From: SAR202 cluster bacterium
GTDB taxonomy: Bacteria; Chloroflexota; Dehalococcoidia; UBA6926; VFHL01
DNA: 64,000 bases
Direction of reading: 5' to 3'
NCBI GenBank assembly: GCA_009392005.1
Contig: VFHL01000006.1
Location: 74,671 to 138,670 of the forward strand
In this document: positions 8,001 through 24,558 of the stretch, piece after piece
Layout of the letters: every line of letters begins with the position of its first letter
How positions within the stretch are numbered: the stretch's first letter is position 1
Translations under genes and position numbers: made by a program
The notes under the pieces: generated by a model
Databases searched by the model: none
Told to the model about the DNA's origin: nothing
The model's input: only the letters and a program-made list of their open reading frames with translations

Positions 8001-9239
8001 ATGAACAACCCAGTGGAGGAACCTCTACCGAATGCCGGCGTGTCACGCACATTCCAAGCATTAATTCATCCAACTTACAGGCGATTGTGGGTTGCCGGAT
8101 GGCTTTGGTACAGCAACCTTTGGATTGAATTCATTGTTCTACCATGGTTGATGCTTGACCTAACAAATTCCCCAATGCAAGTTGCCCTTGTTGGCGTTAC
8201 TCGCATGGCACCAATGTTTTTCTTTGGAGTATTGGGGGGCAGCCTATCCGACCGATTCCCCAAACACCATGTTTTATTCACCCTCCAATGTTTCAACATA
8301 TTGGTCACCCTAACGATGACGTTAATCCTTATATCGGGGATCATCCGCCCATGGCATATTTTTCTAGTCGCATTCTTAATGGGAACTTCTTGGACTATTG
8401 ATTTTTCTGCACGACGTTCATATTTTGCCGAGATGTTACCACCGAATCGACTTACGAATGCAATCTCACTAGATGCTGCAGCCATGACAGGAAGCGGTAT
8501 TTTGGGATCAATCCTTGGTGGAACATTGATCACTCTAACTGGTTATCACGGCGCGTATATTTTCATGCTCATACTATTCCTCATTGGATTCACCCTGCTA
8601 TTCCCAGTCCCGAGTCGACAAACCAGTGCACCCAGACCAGCTCTCGCCAATCCTCTTACGCAAATTGCAGAAGCTTTCCAATTAATCAGGACAAATCGAG
8701 CAGTATGGGCGGCATTCAGTGTTACAGTTGCTATGAATTTCTTCGGATTTCCCTATTTCCAAATGGTTCCTGTAATCGCACGAGATGTCCTTGATGTCAA
8801 CGCGTTTTTATTTAGTATTTTAAGTGCGGCCGCAGGGACCGGATCATTCATTGGCTCAATGGTGATTGCAACACGGGGGTCACGCAGACAAGGATCACTA
8901 TATTCTGTCGGTTCGATCATCATGCTCGTCTCTGTTTTTGCTTTTGCATTTTCAAATTTATATGGCTTATCAGTACTCCTGCTTTTTATCGCAGGTCTCG
9001 GGATGGCTGGATTTGCTACGATGCAACCAGTCCTCATGCTTCAAGCAACTCCACCAGAGCTGAGTGGTCGTGCCATGGGCATTATTGCGATCGGAATCGG
9101 AGCAAGCCCATTGGGCATGTTCGTGGTCGGACTTCTGGCAGAATTTTTCGGGGCACCAACAGCCATCGCAATCAGTACTGGCGTCGGAATTATTGTATTG
9201 TTTGGATTAAGAATACAGCTGGAACAGTTGCGCGACTAA
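8001..9239 (+). CDS. MFS transporter
   Basis: A 412-residue, strongly hydrophobic protein with about 12 membrane segments. The loop-2 signature reads GGSLSDRFPKHH and the first segment follows HPTYRRLWVAGWLWYSNLW, which resembles the EntS/MFS_3 type of exporter. It is an inner-membrane secondary transporter, probably an exporter; the substrate is unknown. It starts 9 bases after the SPFH gene without its own ribosome site, which suggests translational coupling. Confidence 0.85.
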   Translation: MNNPVEEPLPNAGVSRTFQALIHPTYRRLWVAGWLWYSNLWIEFIVLPWLMLDLTNSPMQVALVGVTRMAPMFFFGVLGGSLSDRFPKHHVLFTLQCFNILVTLTMTLILISGIIRPWHIFLVAFLMGTSWTIDFSARRSYFAEMLPPNRLTNAISLDAAAMTGSGILGSILGGTLITLTGYHGAYIFMLILFLIGFTLLFPVPSRQTSAPRPALANPLTQIAEAFQLIRTNRAVWAAFSVTVAMNFFGFPYFQMVPVIARDVLDVNAFLFSILSAAAGTGSFIGSMVIATRGSRRQGSLYSVGSIIMLVSVFAFAFSNLYGLSVLLLFIAGLGMAGFATMQPVLMLQATPPELSGRAMGIIAIGIGASPLGMFVVGLLAEFFGAPTAIAISTGVGIIVLFGLRIQLEQLRD

Positions 9240-9369
9240 GAAATCTATTACTCGCACTCAATGTATATGCTTTTAAGATTCCTATAGATTTTAACTAACC
9301 AAACCCGTGTGTAATAATTGTTATGCGAAATGATGTTGTTAGTTGACCAAAAAATATAAGGAGGATACG

Positions 9370-9711
9370 ATGGCAACATACGTTGGATATTTTCGACCAA
9401 ACCCGAACTACTCAGCATACAGAGATGAAATGTTCATCACAGGTGAATGGGAACCTGCTGCTGGCTCTCAACCCGACAGTAAAATGGCAGACAAAGTTCG
9501 GGGATTCCCCGACTTCCTTGAATCAATTGGAGTGAAATTCCTTGGTTCCTATGTACCAGTAGGACTGCCTCCTAACAATCCAGAAAACCCGCCCGGATTT
9601 TCCATTATAGAAACCGATGACGACTCGAAGTTAATACAAATTATTACCTATTATGCACCATTTCTGGACTACTCGTTCTATCGATACAACGCACCCAATC
9701 GACCCCAATAG
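9370..9711 (+). CDS. Hypothetical protein, 113 residues
   Basis: I do not recognise this protein. ATG 9370 is chosen over the track start at 9343 because of the AAGGAGG site 6 bases upstream. The sequence (MATYVGYFRPNPNYSAY..., later GFPDFLESIGVKFLGSYVPVG) has no signal peptide or membrane segment, and is rich in Tyr, Pro and Phe. Its size and the pattern of a short strand, helix and GFSIIETDD strand would suit a dimeric ferredoxin-like alpha/beta barrel, but that is a guess. It has intergenic space on both sides, so it is likely a single-gene unit. Confidence 0.75.
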   Translation: MATYVGYFRPNPNYSAYRDEMFITGEWEPAAGSQPDSKMADKVRGFPDFLESIGVKFLGSYVPVGLPPNNPENPPGFSIIETDDDSKLIQIITYYAPFLDYSFYRYNAPNRPQ

Positions 9712-9739
9712 CGGACATATAGTATTCGGATAAGAATCT

Positions 9740-9834
9740 GGGCAAGAGGCCAGGCTTTAGGAATTGGTTTCTTGCCCTTCTTGATACCATAAATCCTCTT
9801 TTTTGAAAGAATAGCAAAATCAAAAAGAGGCTTT
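9740..9834 (+). terminator. Two hairpins after the 113-residue protein, possible terminators
   Basis: The first inverted repeat is GGGCAAGA (9740-9747) with TCTTGCCC (9770-9777), followed by TTCTTG. The second is CCTCTTTTT (9795-9803) with AAAAAGAGG (9822-9830), followed by CTTTT. Neither has a perfect U-tract, but two stems in a row in a short intergenic gap are best explained as transcription ends. Confidence 0.5.
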
Positions 9835-9894
9835 TGAGAGCGAAACCCAAGACAACTCCAGACAGAAATCCCTTATCTCTAATATCAAAACCAA

Positions 9895-10893
9895 ATGTAT
9901 AACTCTACTGAACGACAAGGATATAGTTCTGCTACATTTCAGGCATATGAAAAGGCACGAGAAACAACCCGTCCAGTAACCGAGCAAATTGTACGCCAAA
10001 TTCTGAAATCAACTTTTGAAAAAAGTGAATGGGTGCTAGAAATCGGTAGTGGTATTGGAGAATTAGTAGGATTACTATCTGAACGAGACAGAATCCGGAC
10101 CATGCAGTCTGATATTTTGCCAGAACTGGTCGCAAAAATACCCTTCAAAACACCTAAACTAATTGCAAGTACACACTCTCTTCCCTTCAGAAACAACTCG
10201 GTGCCTGCGATAGCAAGTTATTCTGTGTTAAATGCAATCATAAACATCGAAGAAGCGATAAACGAGATTGGACGGGTTTTGAAACCTGCAGGCTTTTTCA
10301 CTAGTTTTCTTGATCTCCAAACGATCCCTGAATTTGTCATGACGAGATTCCCAGATGATATTTTGATCCCGGCAACAATGTTAATACCAAAAACCAACAT
10401 CACGGTCACTGATCGTTTATATATGCAGGTCAATAGGGACACACTAAAAATGGAATTGGATCTACATGAGGAGGAACTCGAACCCGACATATTTAAGTTC
10501 CTCAATGATTACATAGCAAACCCTATACCTGAGTGGCACGCATACCAAGGAAATTCCGACGAAGCAGCACGATTAGCCCATTCCCAACGCATTGCCCAAG
10601 CAATTTCCTCCTTGGGTATTGAGGCCGTTTTTATCGATGCATTAGAGTACTTCACCACACATCTCGAAAAATATGTCCGCAACCATGGATTCAATATCAA
10701 ACAATCCGAAATGATTAGTGGATCTGGTGTAATTGACCGAACCGAGATAAAAAACCCAGATAAGCAAAATTCTTACCACACTGCGATGGGTGCCCACTGG
10801 AAAACAACTGATCAAAACCTGGGACCGGATAAGATTCGATTGGAATCAACATTATTTGTTTTCGTTGCTCAAAAATCTTCATCCACTCAATAA
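9895..10893 (+). CDS. Class I SAM-dependent methyltransferase
   Basis: A 332-residue protein with a clear motif I (WVLEIGSGIGELVGLL, about residues 47-60), an acidic motif II strand (RTMQSDILPEL), HSLPFRNNSVPAIASYSVLNAI as the motif IV/post-I region, and RVLKPAGFF as motif VI. This is the UbiE/Methyltransf_11 layout. The C-terminal half (about 150-332) is longer than usual and unfamiliar; it may fix the substrate. The acceptor is unknown. No strong ribosome site is visible before ATG 9895. Confidence 0.8.
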   Translation: MYNSTERQGYSSATFQAYEKARETTRPVTEQIVRQILKSTFEKSEWVLEIGSGIGELVGLLSERDRIRTMQSDILPELVAKIPFKTPKLIASTHSLPFRNNSVPAIASYSVLNAIINIEEAINEIGRVLKPAGFFTSFLDLQTIPEFVMTRFPDDILIPATMLIPKTNITVTDRLYMQVNRDTLKMELDLHEEELEPDIFKFLNDYIANPIPEWHAYQGNSDEAARLAHSQRIAQAISSLGIEAVFIDALEYFTTHLEKYVRNHGFNIKQSEMISGSGVIDRTEIKNPDKQNSYHTAMGAHWKTTDQNLGPDKIRLESTLFVFVAQKSSSTQ

Positions 10894-18693: not shown

Positions 18694-18970
18694 TTGAACC
18701 CTCCTCCAAGTAATTCTACATACGACAAGCGAATCCTATACTGAACTTTATCCACATCAACATCATACAAAACATGGACGGGCAAAAGATATAAAAACAT
18801 GTCATATTGAAGAATTAATTGGTTTATTCGAATAGAGCGCAAATGTGTTTAACAGGGTCTTATTTTCAAGTTGCGATTCTTGGACATCTAAAGGTATACT
18901 CCGCTCGCTTGTAACATGAAAGAAGGAACCTGACGTGACCGTGGGCAATTGAATAATAGGAGGGATTTTG

Positions 18971-19924
18971 ATGAAATTTGTCTTGTTCAATGACGGCACA
19001 CCCGGCTTATTACGGGATGATGGAATTATAGATATCAGCGAAGCGATCCAATCAGTCACAACTGAACGGGGTCAAGAAGCGATGAAGGCAATCATCACGC
19101 ATCTGGCCGAGATAAAACCTCAACTAGACCAAATAAACCAAACTGGTAAAGCACTCTCCCTTAGTGAGGCAAATTTGCTTGCACCACTACCCCAACCCGG
19201 AAAAATCTTATGTATGGGGGGGAACTTTACAGAATTTGGACACCGAGAAGCTGGTCCTATGTGGGGATTTCTGAAGGCATCGAATGCGGTTATTGGTCCT
19301 GGTGGAACCGTAGTTTTGCCACCCGACGACGTCAATATTTTTCATCATGAAGCGGAACTTGTATTAGTGTTCGGCCGCGCCGGAAAAGATATCAAAGAGG
19401 AAGATGCCTTTGACTATGTCTTTGGCTACACATGTGGAGTGGACGTTTCGGCACGAATGCCGGCGACACCTGGTAGCGGGCCACCAGAATTCCAAGCATG
19501 GCGAGGAATTTCAAACCACAAATCATATCCAACCTTTGCTCCACTAGGTCCAGCAATCATCACAAAAGATGAAGTTAAAGACCCGCAAGACGTTGGAGTA
19601 CAGCTTTCTGTCGATGGGCAATTAAGGGGTGATTTCAACACCTCTGACATGGCACATTCAATCGCGAAATCCATTGCCTTTGTGAGCCAACACGAAGGAT
19701 TCGATGTAGGAGATGTTCTATACACTGGAACCAATCATCAGGGTCTTGGAGCAATGCAAGATGGCGAAAAAATCACGATCGAGATCGAGCAGGTCGGCGG
19801 TTTCTCGTTCCACGTAAGCGACCCACTAAAAAGGAAATGGCCCACAGGAGTAGATGAGGAAACAGCTCAAGATGTACGGGAAGGTACAGGAGGCCCTGGA
19901 AGGCGAAAACGACCTCTAAGCTAA
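18971..19924 (+). CDS. Fumarylacetoacetate hydrolase (FAH) family protein
   Basis: A 317-residue FAH-family protein. The metal site is visible in IFHHEAELVLVFGR (His and Glu ligands) and the downstream Asp of the GYTCGVDVSAR region. The family covers acylpyruvate hydrolases, 2-hydroxyhepta-diene-dioate isomerases and oxaloacetate decarboxylases that cut C-C bonds in aromatic breakdown. A strong AGGAGGG site lies 6 bases before ATG 18971, so the TTG at 18968 is not needed. It ends with a Pro/Arg-rich tail (GGPGRRKRPLS). Confidence 0.88.
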   Translation: MKFVLFNDGTPGLLRDDGIIDISEAIQSVTTERGQEAMKAIITHLAEIKPQLDQINQTGKALSLSEANLLAPLPQPGKILCMGGNFTEFGHREAGPMWGFLKASNAVIGPGGTVVLPPDDVNIFHHEAELVLVFGRAGKDIKEEDAFDYVFGYTCGVDVSARMPATPGSGPPEFQAWRGISNHKSYPTFAPLGPAIITKDEVKDPQDVGVQLSVDGQLRGDFNTSDMAHSIAKSIAFVSQHEGFDVGDVLYTGTNHQGLGAMQDGEKITIEIEQVGGFSFHVSDPLKRKWPTGVDEETAQDVREGTGGPGRRKRPLS

Positions 19925-19974
19925 CAAGAGAACCTTAGCGTAAAACCCAGGTTAAAAATATTCTCAGTATTAAA

Positions 19975-20007
19975 GGTGGGTGGCAGCAACAAAAACTGCC
20001 ACTCACC
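19975..20007 (-). terminator. Hairpin between convergent FAH and VOC genes
   Basis: A 12-bp stem (GGTGGGTGGCAG with CTGCCACTCACC, one G-T pair) and a 9-base loop lie between two convergent genes. On the minus strand it is followed by TTTAAT, so it mainly fits the end of the VOC gene; on the plus strand there is no U-tract. It may serve both directions. Confidence 0.65.
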
Positions 20008-20025
20008 AATATTCAAAATCAATGC

Positions 20026-20973
20026 CTACGGACCCGGATGTGCTCCGTGGGTATGTTCAACGTGATCATGTCCAGGTGGACGATTCCATGGCTCTAAAAG
20101 CATTCCCATACAGGTTCGCGGGTGAAACCACCCAGTCGCACGCTCAGAAACCTCTTTAGGCGGAATCGAACCGATCTGCTGCATACCAGCAGCATTTGCC
20201 TGATCTACAAATCGGTGTACATCGGGAGTGAAGGGAGCTGTATGATGAAACACATTTCCCAAAGTTGCCCGTTCGGCAACTAATCGAGCCGTCCCACTCT
20301 CGGTTGTCGTAGGATGACTAATTTCGATCACTGTTCCTCCCACGGGAAACTCCAAAATGTGCACAGGATCCGAAGCCGCTCGGCTCAGATCGCGATCAGC
20401 CGCCGGACCATCTTTGCCACGTTCAGACGAGAAATCCTCACGTAAACCAAACACATTTGTCCAAAACTCACGTGATTCATTACCGTCACGACCGGCTAAA
20501 CCAACATGCGCCATACCTGTGCAGGTACCATTCCCGCGATAGTATGGGTGTACATAATAGGTATCATCACTTGTAACCTGTAATCGAATACCAAGCGTCG
20601 TAGTCGGATCGAGAAAAACTGGTCCTTCACCATCCCATTCTCCCTCAATCTTTATTCCCTTAGCCTGGAATTCTTTCAAGTCCCCCGCCAGATCATCAGA
20701 GGCGAAGGACACGTAATACATCCCTCCACGGCCGTTCGATGACTCTAGGAATTGCCCCGGAGCGCTATCTGCACTTCCAGGCTTTGCGATCTCGTAATAC
20801 ATCTCGCCGATCGGAAATTCTAAGATCTTCGTGCCATCATAACCTTGCGCTCCATCAGGCCAGGGAGTCCGATGCTCATTCAAGGAAAGACCAAATCCCT
20901 CTACAAGGACATGCCTTGCATTCTCTAAATCTTCCGTAACCAAACCAACATGGTGAACTCTGGTGATTGCCAT
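20026..20973 (-). CDS. Two-domain VOC family protein with His-rich tail
   Basis: A 315-residue protein with two VOC units: about 1-125 (ITRVHHVGLVTEDLENARHV, ending in a GIRLQV strand) and about 145-300 (GMAHVGLAGRDGNESREFW, ending MLLEPWN). The size suits an extradiol-dioxygenase-like or hydroxyphenylpyruvate-dioxygenase-like fold. The end GHDHVEHTHGAHPGP is rich in His and may bind metal. ATG 20973 has a GGAGGG site. It is convergent with the FAH gene, so the two may share a ring-cleavage type pathway; this is inference. Confidence 0.82.
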   Translation of the reverse strand: MAITRVHHVGLVTEDLENARHVLVEGFGLSLNEHRTPWPDGAQGYDGTKILEFPIGEMYYEIAKPGSADSAPGQFLESSNGRGGMYYVSFASDDLAGDLKEFQAKGIKIEGEWDGEGPVFLDPTTTLGIRLQVTSDDTYYVHPYYRGNGTCTGMAHVGLAGRDGNESREFWTNVFGLREDFSSERGKDGPAADRDLSRAASDPVHILEFPVGGTVIEISHPTTTESGTARLVAERATLGNVFHHTAPFTPDVHRFVDQANAAGMQQIGSIPPKEVSERATGWFHPRTCMGMLLEPWNRPPGHDHVEHTHGAHPGP

Positions 20974-21103
20974 TGTTCCCTCCATTCACATAAAATCACC
21001 TTTTCACGCATAGGATCTCATCAAACTCAAAAGCAATCAACTGCTAGAATGCGATTCAACGCACATTAATTTAACGTATGTTCATACTGAGAGGTATAGG
21101 TCT

Positions 21104-21733: not shown

Positions 21734-22888
21734 ATGAGTGCAGGCACGATAAACCGGGGAGAATTTGCGATTGTTGGCGTCGGGGAACCGGACACACAAA
21801 ATCGCGTCCCAGAAAAAACCGAATTATCAATGGGAACAGAGGCGTTACTCAAAGCAGCAGATGACGCAGGTATCGCCATCAAAGATATCGACGGCTGGTT
21901 CGTCCCTGGGGGGCCAAGCCCAAACCAGGCTGGAGAATACGTCGGTGTTTTCCCATCATATGCTGATGGGGGCAACGTTGGAGCAGTGAGTCCGATCGCA
22001 ATGGTCGGCCACGCTATGGCAGCCATCAATGCAGGTTATTGTTCCGTCGCAGCAGTACTGCATACCCAATTAAGCCGTAGTGGCCCGCGTGGAGGCGGAG
22101 GTGGGGATACATCGTCAACCATTGGCGGACAATTCATAGCGCCATACGGAATCGAAGGAGAATACAGCCGGCATGGGATGGTAGCTAATCGATACAACCA
22201 AACATACGGAACGGAAATGTCAGGATTTGCTGAACTCGCTGTATCAAATCGAAAGTGGGCCCAGCTCCATCCACGAGCGGCTTACACAGATCCAATGACT
22301 GTAGAAGATGTTTTGAATGCTCGGATCTTGTCATGGCCAATTACACTCCCTATGGTTTGCCCTGTCTTAGATAACGCATCCGCAATCATTATTACATCGG
22401 CCGATCGCGCCAAAGATATGAACAAAAAACCTGTTTCAATTCTCGGGTTCACTCAGGAATTTGAAATGAGCATTGATTTCAAAGAAGATTTGCTCGATTG
22501 GGAAATGATCCGCAAGTCTGGCGAGAAGCTTTTCCCGATGGCCGGCGTATCCCACAATGACATTGACCTAGTACAAACTCACGATTGCTTTATACCAGTA
22601 CCAATTCTTGAAGTCGAAGGGTTGGGATTTTGCGAGAAGGGAGAAGGTCTGGCATTCGTCGCAGATGGAAGAACAGCGCCCGGGGGTGATTTCCCAATGA
22701 ACACAAATGGAGGCGGATTATCCTATTCTCATAGTGGTAGTTTTGGCCTTGCCAGTATTTGTGACACCGTTGAACAACTTCGAGGAGAATCAGGGCCGAG
22801 GCAAATTACGGATGCCAACATTGGTTTAGTTACAGGATCAGGTGGAGGATTTACAACAAACACATCCATCATTCTGACCAACCAATAG
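21734..22888 (+). CDS. SCP2-thiolase superfamily protein lacking the nucleophilic Cys
   Basis: A 384-residue thiolase-like protein starting at ATG 21734 (GAGGAGGGG site), not at 21680. Thiolases carry a reactive Cys about 17 residues before the AIxxG turn; here the matching stretch NVGAVSPIAMVGHAMAAINAG has none. It keeps His in THDCFIPVPILEVEGLGF and has LSYSHSG where thiolases have GHPxG. Such Cys-less proteins paired with DUF35 partners include Ltp2-type retro-aldolases of steroid side-chain breakdown. A DUF35 gene follows 58 bases downstream and a paralogue lies on the other strand. Confidence 0.85.
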   Translation: MSAGTINRGEFAIVGVGEPDTQNRVPEKTELSMGTEALLKAADDAGIAIKDIDGWFVPGGPSPNQAGEYVGVFPSYADGGNVGAVSPIAMVGHAMAAINAGYCSVAAVLHTQLSRSGPRGGGGGDTSSTIGGQFIAPYGIEGEYSRHGMVANRYNQTYGTEMSGFAELAVSNRKWAQLHPRAAYTDPMTVEDVLNARILSWPITLPMVCPVLDNASAIIITSADRAKDMNKKPVSILGFTQEFEMSIDFKEDLLDWEMIRKSGEKLFPMAGVSHNDIDLVQTHDCFIPVPILEVEGLGFCEKGEGLAFVADGRTAPGGDFPMNTNGGGLSYSHSGSFGLASICDTVEQLRGESGPRQITDANIGLVTGSGGGFTTNTSIILTNQ

Positions 22889-22946
22889 GGCTACTTACCC
22901 CCTAAAAAGTGCATAACCAAATACGGTCTATAGAAGGAGCACCTAA

Positions 22947-23366
22947 ATGACAAGCGAATATACAAATCCCGTCCCTACTCCAACACCAGACACGCAAAAT
23001 TTTTGGGATGGTTTAAAAGAACAAACGATACAATTAAAACGTTGTTTAGAAAACGAATGTGGACGTTTCCACCACTTCCCGCGTTCAATTTGCCCATATT
23101 GTCATTCAACGAATCTCGAATGGACACCGGTTAGCGGAAACGGAACGCTCTACGCATTTTCCGTAAACCATCGACCGCCACGTGGATGGACCGAAAATGA
23201 AGCCCCTGTGATCGCGATTGTTGAATTGGAAGAAGGGATCAAGCTTTACACAAACTTAGTGAACCCACCAGAAGACCCAACCACAATTAAAATTGGTGTC
23301 CCTGTGGAGCCTGTGTTTGATAAAGTGACCAATGAGGTCACTTTGTTGCGATACCGCTTGAAGTAA
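22947..23366 (+). CDS. DUF35 (Zn-ribbon plus OB-fold) protein, partner of the thiolase-like protein
   Basis: A 139-residue DUF35 protein: N-terminal helix NFWDGLKEQTIQLKRC, a rubredoxin-like zinc ribbon with CLENECG and CPYC, and an OB-fold (GNGTLYAFSVNHRPPRGW...). In known cases DUF35 proteins bind acyl-CoA and hold SCP2-thiolase-like partners in a complex. Its place directly behind the thiolase-like gene, with an AGAAGGAG site, supports such a complex. It ends 20 bases before the end of the convergent paralogue. Confidence 0.9.
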   Translation: MTSEYTNPVPTPTPDTQNFWDGLKEQTIQLKRCLENECGRFHHFPRSICPYCHSTNLEWTPVSGNGTLYAFSVNHRPPRGWTENEAPVIAIVELEEGIKLYTNLVNPPEDPTTIKIGVPVEPVFDKVTNEVTLLRYRLK

Positions 23367-23385
23367 ATAACACAAGGGTAAGCAA

Positions 23386-24558
23386 TTAGACGCTCTCAAG
23401 ATCACTTAGGATTAATGTCCCGAAGGCCGACATAGCTCCGCCACCCATCCCATTTATCATCGCATGATGAACGTTTGGAACTTGCCTCTCCCCAGTTTCA
23501 CCTCGGGTTTGGCGTACCCCTTCTATCAAAGGAAATATGCCATAGGGGCCTGGGTGACCATAAGAGAGACCGCCACCATGTGTATTCAATGGAAAATGGC
23601 CTCCAGGTGCTGTTCCACCGTTTGCAACAAAATCCCCACTGCCACCCAATTCAGTGAATCCTAATGCCTCAATCGCAAACATTGGATTGAAGACAAATGC
23701 ATCATAGAATTCTGCAACGTCGATATCTTTCTGGCTAACCCCCGCCATCGGGAAAGCTCGCTCACCATTTTGAGCTACACCTTCCCATACACTGAAATCA
23801 CGTGCCTCACTGACACCATTATGAGCTGTTCCCTCACCTGATCCAGCGACATAAACGGGAGGCTTTTTCAAATCTTTGGCTCGTTCAGCAGAGGTAAGAA
23901 TTACAGCTGCACCCATATCCATAACCAAACAACACATAGCCATTGTAAATGGCCACGAGACCATAGGCGCTGAAAGAACGTCCTCACGAGTCTGGGGTTC
24001 CCTCATAATCGCTCGTGGATTAAGTTGTGCCCATTTCCGTGTAGATACGGCAACATCCGCCATCTGTTCTCGGGTCGTTCCATAAGTATGCATATGTCGC
24101 GTCGCGAACATACCTGTTTGACTTGCAGCGGCACCAAGACCAAAAGGAGCCTCAAATTGGCCTGGATACGTATTTGCTGATTGACCAGCGCCCGGCATAC
24201 CAACACGGCTACCTGCACCTTCTCCATGAAAAATCAATGCAACATCACAAAAACCAGCCATAATTGCTGCCACAGCATGCTCGACATGCATGATATAAGA
24301 TGTCCCGCCAACTGATGTAGCATCAATATATTTGGGAATAACACCCAAATAATCAGTGATTTGCGCAAACGTGTTGCCACCAGGACCACCAGAAAAAATC
24401 CCATCTACGTCTGATAACTCTAAACCAGCATCATCCAAAGCTAACAACATCGCCTCAGTCGCTAATTCAAAAACATTTCGGTTCGGAATGCGCCCGATTT
24501 GTGATTCTCCCACGCCAACAATTGCTACTTTACGTGATACATCTCGAAAGTCTGCCAT
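23386..24558 (-). CDS. SCP2-thiolase superfamily protein, Ltp2-like
   Basis: A 390-residue paralogue of the 21734 protein. The nucleophilic Cys of thiolases is again missing (SVGGTSYIMHVEHAVAAIMAG). Where the first paralogue has HDCF this one has FYDAF, and it has LSYGHPGPYG near the end. In the steroid aldolase Ltp2 two tyrosines about 50 apart (Tyr294, Tyr344) do the chemistry; the Tyr of FYDAF and the Tyr of LSYGHPG, 48 apart, are candidates. It may cut or form a C-C bond in a beta-hydroxyacyl-CoA. A GGAGGT site precedes ATG 24558. Confidence 0.85.
   Translation of the reverse strand: MADFRDVSRKVAIVGVGESQIGRIPNRNVFELATEAMLLALDDAGLELSDVDGIFSGGPGGNTFAQITDYLGVIPKYIDATSVGGTSYIMHVEHAVAAIMAGFCDVALIFHGEGAGSRVGMPGAGQSANTYPGQFEAPFGLGAAASQTGMFATRHMHTYGTTREQMADVAVSTRKWAQLNPRAIMREPQTREDVLSAPMVSWPFTMAMCCLVMDMGAAVILTSAERAKDLKKPPVYVAGSGEGTAHNGVSEARDFSVWEGVAQNGERAFPMAGVSQKDIDVAEFYDAFVFNPMFAIEALGFTELGGSGDFVANGGTAPGGHFPLNTHGGGLSYGHPGPYGIFPLIEGVRQTRGETGERQVPNVHHAMINGMGGGAMSAFGTLILSDLESV

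Follow-up and report, generated by a model that had tools for sequence, protein, structure and literature searches.

What reaction do two thiolase-fold proteins carry out in the absence of the thiolase nucleophile, and does the single DUF35 protein encoded between them serve both? This is the question raised by one locus in the 64 kb stretch of SAR202 DNA that was analysed here (the window). Its first gene, P1 (21734-22888, plus strand), encodes 384 residues and has a GAGGAGG ribosome-binding site 5' of its ATG; 58 bp 3' of it, on the same strand, lies the gene of a 139-residue DUF35 protein (22947-23366), in which a zinc ribbon with an unusual C-x4-C first knuckle is combined with an OB fold. 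The third gene, P3 (23386-24558, minus strand), encodes 390 residues and is convergent with this pair, and is therefore not co-transcribed with it. All three open reading frames are present as originally predicted, are preceded by good ribosome-binding sites (three of three) and have a GC3 within or near the range of sampled neighbour genes. According to Pfam, P1 and P3 contain the thiolase C-terminal domain, and the DUF35 protein combines a zinc ribbon of the ChsH2 type with an OB fold; the AlphaFold models are confident (pLDDT 90.4 for P1 and 89.5 for P3; pTM 0.92), and the picture of two full-length thiolase-fold proteins flanking one zinc-ribbon/OB DUF35 protein is thus accurate. Upstream of P1 the window holds a FAH-family hydrolase (plus strand) and a two-domain VOC/glyoxalase protein (minus strand) at 18968-20985, both of types found in aromatic or CoA-ester catabolism, and there is no hydratase gene next to P1, P3 or the DUF35 gene.

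In our alignment the column of the thiolase nucleophile holds Gly85 in P3 and Ala84 in P1, and glycine likewise in the bile-acid aldolase Sal, in the steroid aldolase Ltp2 and in the structure 4u4e, so that the absence of the nucleophilic Cys from both proteins is borne out; a check for a reactive Cys likewise found none at the thiolase position of P1 or P3. One residue further on, P3 has Thr and P1 has Val, and about 47 of 113 distinct family sequences (relatives in L057-L136) have a Cys there as part of a GGCSF motif. The motifs from which the original prediction started, FYDAF and LSYGHPG in P3 and HDCF in P1, were all found, and Tyr285 and Tyr333 of P3 do lie 48 residues apart. The proposed correspondence of these two residues to Tyr294 and Tyr344, the catalytic residues of Ltp2 according to the literature, does however not hold, since Tyr344 aligns with P3 His335 (Tyr285+50) and not with Tyr333 (+48). 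The spacing of the first and second catalytic residue is indeed 50 in P1, P3, Ltp2 (294-344) and Sal (302-352) alike. Tyr285/Tyr333 was rejected as a catalytic pair because it is out of register, Tyr333 coming two residues early, and because Tyr333 is not invariant, its column having Tyr in 103 of the 113 distinct family sequences, with Ser (9) or Asn (1) in the remainder. On sequence grounds the dyad of P3 should read Tyr/His rather than Tyr/Tyr. The first motif, YDAF in P3 and HDCF in P1, reads YDSF in 4u4e, YDCY in Sal and YDHF in Ltp2, and the GHP His, present as His335 in P3 and as His333 in P1, is replaced by Gln352 in Sal and by Tyr344 in Ltp2; where thiolases combine HDCF with the GHP His, P1 shows HDCF/His333 and P3 YDAF/His335. 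The 113 sequences were picked by a YD..H motif and their Tyr and His counts are therefore true by choice, whereas the spacing, Gly84, Gly85, Cys209 and Cys210 were not selection criteria; Tyr and His are 50 residues apart in 112 of the 113, and the four other residues are invariant. P1 breaks 7 of 56 near-invariant columns, as compared to 0-4 in the 11 other proteins checked.

As to the family to which the two proteins belong, Foldseek searches with the models of P1 and P3 return 4u4e first, then Sal (9myr) and Ltp2 (6ok1), the two known aldolases that depend on a DUF35, and all true thiolases lower, and 4u4e is the nearest solved structure by sequence too for both. In the main tree, calculated by IQ-TREE under a site-heterogeneous model, six true thiolases form a separate group (100/100) without P1 or P3; of the remaining sequences, Ltp2 together with the Ltp2-like protein of this genome branches off first and Sal second, ahead of a 57-row clade (100/99) that includes P1, P3 and their relatives. 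Within this clade P1 is sister to P3 and its genomic paralogues C1a-c with a support of 93/93, which rises to 100/95 in a second IQ-TREE run that masks the active-site columns and leaves out long outgroups, and the end branch of P1 is long (1.42 vs 0.25 for P3). FastTree instead puts P1 basal to the clade, a placement that is not rejected by the AU test (p 0.13) and that we take as a long-branch error. The idea that P1 is a kept ancestral thiolase was considered as well and is disfavoured by the two IQ-TREE runs, the unrejected FastTree placement notwithstanding. Clustering with true thiolases had been named as an outcome that would speak against the original prediction, and the grouping of P1 with them is rejected by the AU test (p 0.029, and p 0.021 in the masked run); the designation of P1 and P3 as SCP2-thiolase paralogues is broadly right, since P1 groups with P3 and the genomic paralogues on the better trees. 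Both proteins lack the Cys of N-x-x-C-x-[ST]-G that marks canonical and SCP2-type thiolases, and both fall outside the thiolase group. The Ltp2 signature of YDHF and Tyr344 is missing (YDAF/His335 in P3, HDCF/His333 in P1), and so is the Sal signature of YDC[YF] and Gln352, P3 having Ala287 and His335, and P1 having the Cys but His in place of Tyr. P3 does have the Gly-Gly, the YD[AS]F, the His at +50 and the position within the 57-row clade that define a YD[AS]F/His clade, and P1, which has kept the His and the spacing but lost the Tyr and the second Gly, is a likely member. NCBIfam PRK06158 is the top model for both, with 404.7 bits for P3 and 310.9 bits for P1, below its 421-bit threshold. 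As in the case of Ltp2 there is a candidate DUF35 partner, encoded by the adjacent gene.

The Gly-Gly / YD[AS]F / His signature of this clade differs from those of Ltp2 (YDHF/Tyr) and Sal (YDCY/Gln), and YD[AS][FY] with the His occurs in 131 of about 140 aligned rows in a census that includes duplicates. The hosts are Dehalococcoidia/SAR202, Thermomicrobia, Binatota, Myxococcota-like MAGs, Bacillota, Caulobacteraceae and others, and PF22691 proteins are found in 345 of 393 genomes of the class, often in at least 9 copies. In the relatives, one thiolase-fold gene nearly always adjoins one DUF35 gene on the same strand. SDRs, Zn-alcohol dehydrogenases, acyl-CoA dehydrogenases, CoA ligases and luciferase-type monooxygenases recur only loosely in a census of their neighbour genes, and no substrate can therefore be inferred, the steroids and hopanoids put forward originally being mere candidates. 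At locus L062 a true thiolase, in which both the Cys and HDCF are present (8454-9566), lies beside its own DUF35-like ORF (9635-10171); the same genome has a YDAF/DUF35 pair lacking the Cys a few kb away. In the open-access literature we found no assay, activity or biochemical study of the YD[AS]F/His clade; a search for literature on thiolases in SAR202/Chloroflexi or aldolases in Chloroflexota likewise found none, and the main text of three SAR202 genome papers (PMC6946804, PMC5395668, PMC10444878) makes no mention of thiolase.

The genome (1.60 Mb) encodes 12 PF22691 proteins and 7 DUF35 proteins, as well as 3 MaoC hydratases, 13 acyl-CoA dehydrogenase matches and a single canonical thiolase, in which every catalytic residue is present. 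C1a-c form a tandem YDAF triplet on contig C1 (L021:8872-12716), are 65-71% identical to P3 and have no adjacent DUF35 gene; a MaoC hydratase is encoded on the other strand, some 2.3 kb upstream of the triplet. The Ltp2-like protein C2a and its own DUF35 protein are encoded on contig C2 (L022:2-1045 and 1114-1593), where the C2a gene is cut by the contig end, and C2a has YDHF and a SEAY tyrosine and groups with Ltp2 at 100/100. Judged from the sequence comparisons, P1 arose by duplication within the P3 lineage and has diverged strongly, and if its placement as sister to P3 and C1a-c is right, HDCF is a secondary change from YDAF, so that the thiolase-like motif of P1 is probably secondary. P1 is known from one genome, as no ortholog above 47% identity was found among 84,980 genomes and the 393 genomes of the class. 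The window DUF35 protein and one encoded on contig C5 (L025:7932-8342) are sisters in the DUF35 tree (99/99), among DUF35 proteins that partner YDAF proteins, with branches of 0.76 and 0.30, respectively, which marks the window protein as a diverged duplicate and the C5 protein as its conserved sister. The C5 gene is an orphan without a thiolase-fold gene nearby, and the C-x4-C knuckle of the window protein is absent from every other parsed DUF35 of the set.

Our best guess is that proteins of the P1/P3 type are CoA-thioester C-C lyases. More specifically, we hold with moderate confidence that P3 is a DUF35-dependent C-C lyase acting on beta-hydroxyacyl-CoA and that P1 and the window DUF35 protein represent a duplicated, fast-evolving copy, which most likely forms its own complex, with P3 and C1a-c relying on the C5 DUF35, the window DUF35 or both. 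A C-C lyase with a DUF35 partner is what had originally been proposed, and for P3 this notion is well supported by Sal and Ltp2 being the closest structures of known function, by the tree, by the Gly in place of Cys and by the base Tyr, whereas the Tyr/Tyr dyad has to be given up. P3 would act as a retro-aldolase, or as an aldolase in reverse: Tyr285 of YDAF would be the base that deprotonates the beta-hydroxyl, the backbone of Gly84-Gly85 would hold this oxygen at the site of the thiolase Cys, cleavage of the alpha-beta bond would give an aldehyde or ketone and the CoA enolate, and His335, the retained GHP His of thiolases at the site of Ltp2 Tyr344, would protonate or stabilise the enolate. 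P3 combines the base Tyr with the Gly pair but lacks both the Sal-type and the Ltp2-type acid, and it is in this sense that we infer a Tyr/His retro-aldolase. In Sal, Tyr302 is the base and Cys304 the acid, Gly occupies the Cys position, and Gln352 is the equivalent of Ltp2 Tyr344 (PMC12329534). Since Cys304 is essential, C304A and C304S being inactive (PMC12329534), and since Ala or Ser is found at that position here, C-C lyase chemistry in these proteins must differ from that of Sal. P1 has kept His333, gained Cys285 and lost the Tyr base, and its complex with the window DUF35 protein would thus have a changed active site of His283, Cys285 and His333.

The choice of DUF35 partner we infer solely from gene position and evolutionary rates. 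Two complexes, one of P1 with the window DUF35 and one of P3 and its paralogues with either DUF35, are favoured over one obligate heteromer because the window DUF35 is a diverged duplicate with a conserved sister elsewhere in the genome, and a separate P1 complex is furthermore favoured because the window DUF35 adjoins P1 on the same strand and has diverged alongside it. The original proposal that one DUF35 serves both proteins, or that all form a heteromer, is disfavoured by this divergence, by the opposite strand of P3, by C1a-c being without a DUF35 and by the second, slowly evolving DUF35. A joint action of P1 and P3, in a mixed dimer of which P1 is the altered subunit, or in the form of two dimers linked by one DUF35 in the manner of PhlA/PhlC/PhlB, is accordingly rather unlikely in our view, although the three genes are clustered and acyl transfer in PhlABC uses PhlC residues only; it retains some credit because bridging of two thiolase-fold dimers by DUF35 is known from Phl(A2C2)2B4, as well as from an archaeal thiolase/HMG-CoA synthase complex (PMC6392133). 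The paralogues C1a-c stand alone, however, the genome has a second DUF35 of the same lineage, relatives pair one-to-one, and the window DUF35 is much nearer to the DUF35 of single-partner Shy (E-value 2.8e-27; that of ChsH2 comes next with 7.7e-15) than to the archaeal one (1.6e-13) or PhlB (6e-4 to 6e-5).

Separate complexes being the preferred reading, it may still be asked whether P1 is a lyase at all. Ketosynthases lacking their nucleophile decarboxylate, and P1, in which HDCF and the GHP-type His amount to the acid/base set of thiolases, might be an acyltransferase or a decarboxylase of malonyl- or beta-keto-CoA. T. brucei SLP is cited as slowly decarboxylating malonyl-CoA (in PMC12329534), but such activity is absent in Sal (PMC12329534), P1 is inside the aldolase-like clade on the better trees with the true-thiolase grouping rejected, and the aldolase-type Tyr is kept in P3, which together make this function quite improbable. 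Hardly more probable is that P1 is decaying after its duplication or serves as a non-catalytic scaffold: its long branch, three substitutions of near-invariant residues in or close to the active site (G85A, C209V and Y285H in P3 numbering) and the lack of any ortholog found would fit with such a fate, but the 384-residue frame is intact, with a strong ribosome-binding site, ordinary GC3 and a confidently predicted fold (pLDDT 90.4), and 49 of the 56 near-invariant columns are retained, His333 among them.

If the C-C lyase reading applies to the clade as a whole, many of the pathways predicted for Chloroflexota and other uncultured bacteria have been misinterpreted, since proteins of the clade are currently annotated as acetyl-CoA acetyltransferases or lipid-transfer proteins, and the present genome would have 12 aldolase-like proteins versus one true thiolase. 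The duplicated pair, a conserved Tyr/His protein beside a diverged His/Cys/His protein in one genome, each with a DUF35 of its own lineage, would moreover offer a direct test of a chemistry switch within the thiolase fold. A bolder and, taken as a whole, rather doubtful extension has two parts: P1 would be a C-C lyase with a re-evolved thiolase His/Cys/His set minus the nucleophile, representing a new reaction or a third type of aldolase chemistry, with a DUF35 that has diverged in step; and the YD[AS]F/His clade would be an aldolase family that is widespread, has gone unrecognised and is employed heavily by Dehalococcoidia-like bacteria.

Among known systems, 4u4e, a putative thiolase of Sphaerobacter thermophilus from the YDSF/His clade for which we found no reported function in the open-access literature, resembles P1 and P3 in its fold and in the His at the GHP position, and P3 also in Gly-Gly at the Cys site and YD[AS]F, but is 42% (P1) and 46% (P3) identical and has YDSF rather than YDAF or HDCF. 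Sal-Shy shares the thiolase fold, the DUF35 partner, the Gly at the Cys site, the YDxx Tyr base and the spacing of 50; it differs by YDCY, the essential Cys304 and Gln352, where P3 has Ala287 and His335, and by the fusion of its DUF35 to a MaoC hydratase, the window DUF35 being free-standing. Ltp2-ChsH2 has the architecture, the base Tyr and a DUF35 partner in common but has YDHF and Tyr344 and about 30% identity, and the true Ltp2-like gene of this genome is C2a. By description, P1 and P3 may also be likened to Atf1/ChsH4 of Mycolicibacterium neoaurum, an aldolase and a free-standing 138-residue DUF35 protein in one operon, of which Atf1 shares 56% identity with Sal1 and has sterols as its substrates (PMC10398937). 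PhlABC and the archaeal thiolase/HMG-CoA synthase/DUF35 complex likewise combine two thiolase-fold proteins with one DUF35, but both of their enzymes have a Cys nucleophile and come from different families, and they are not recent duplicates.
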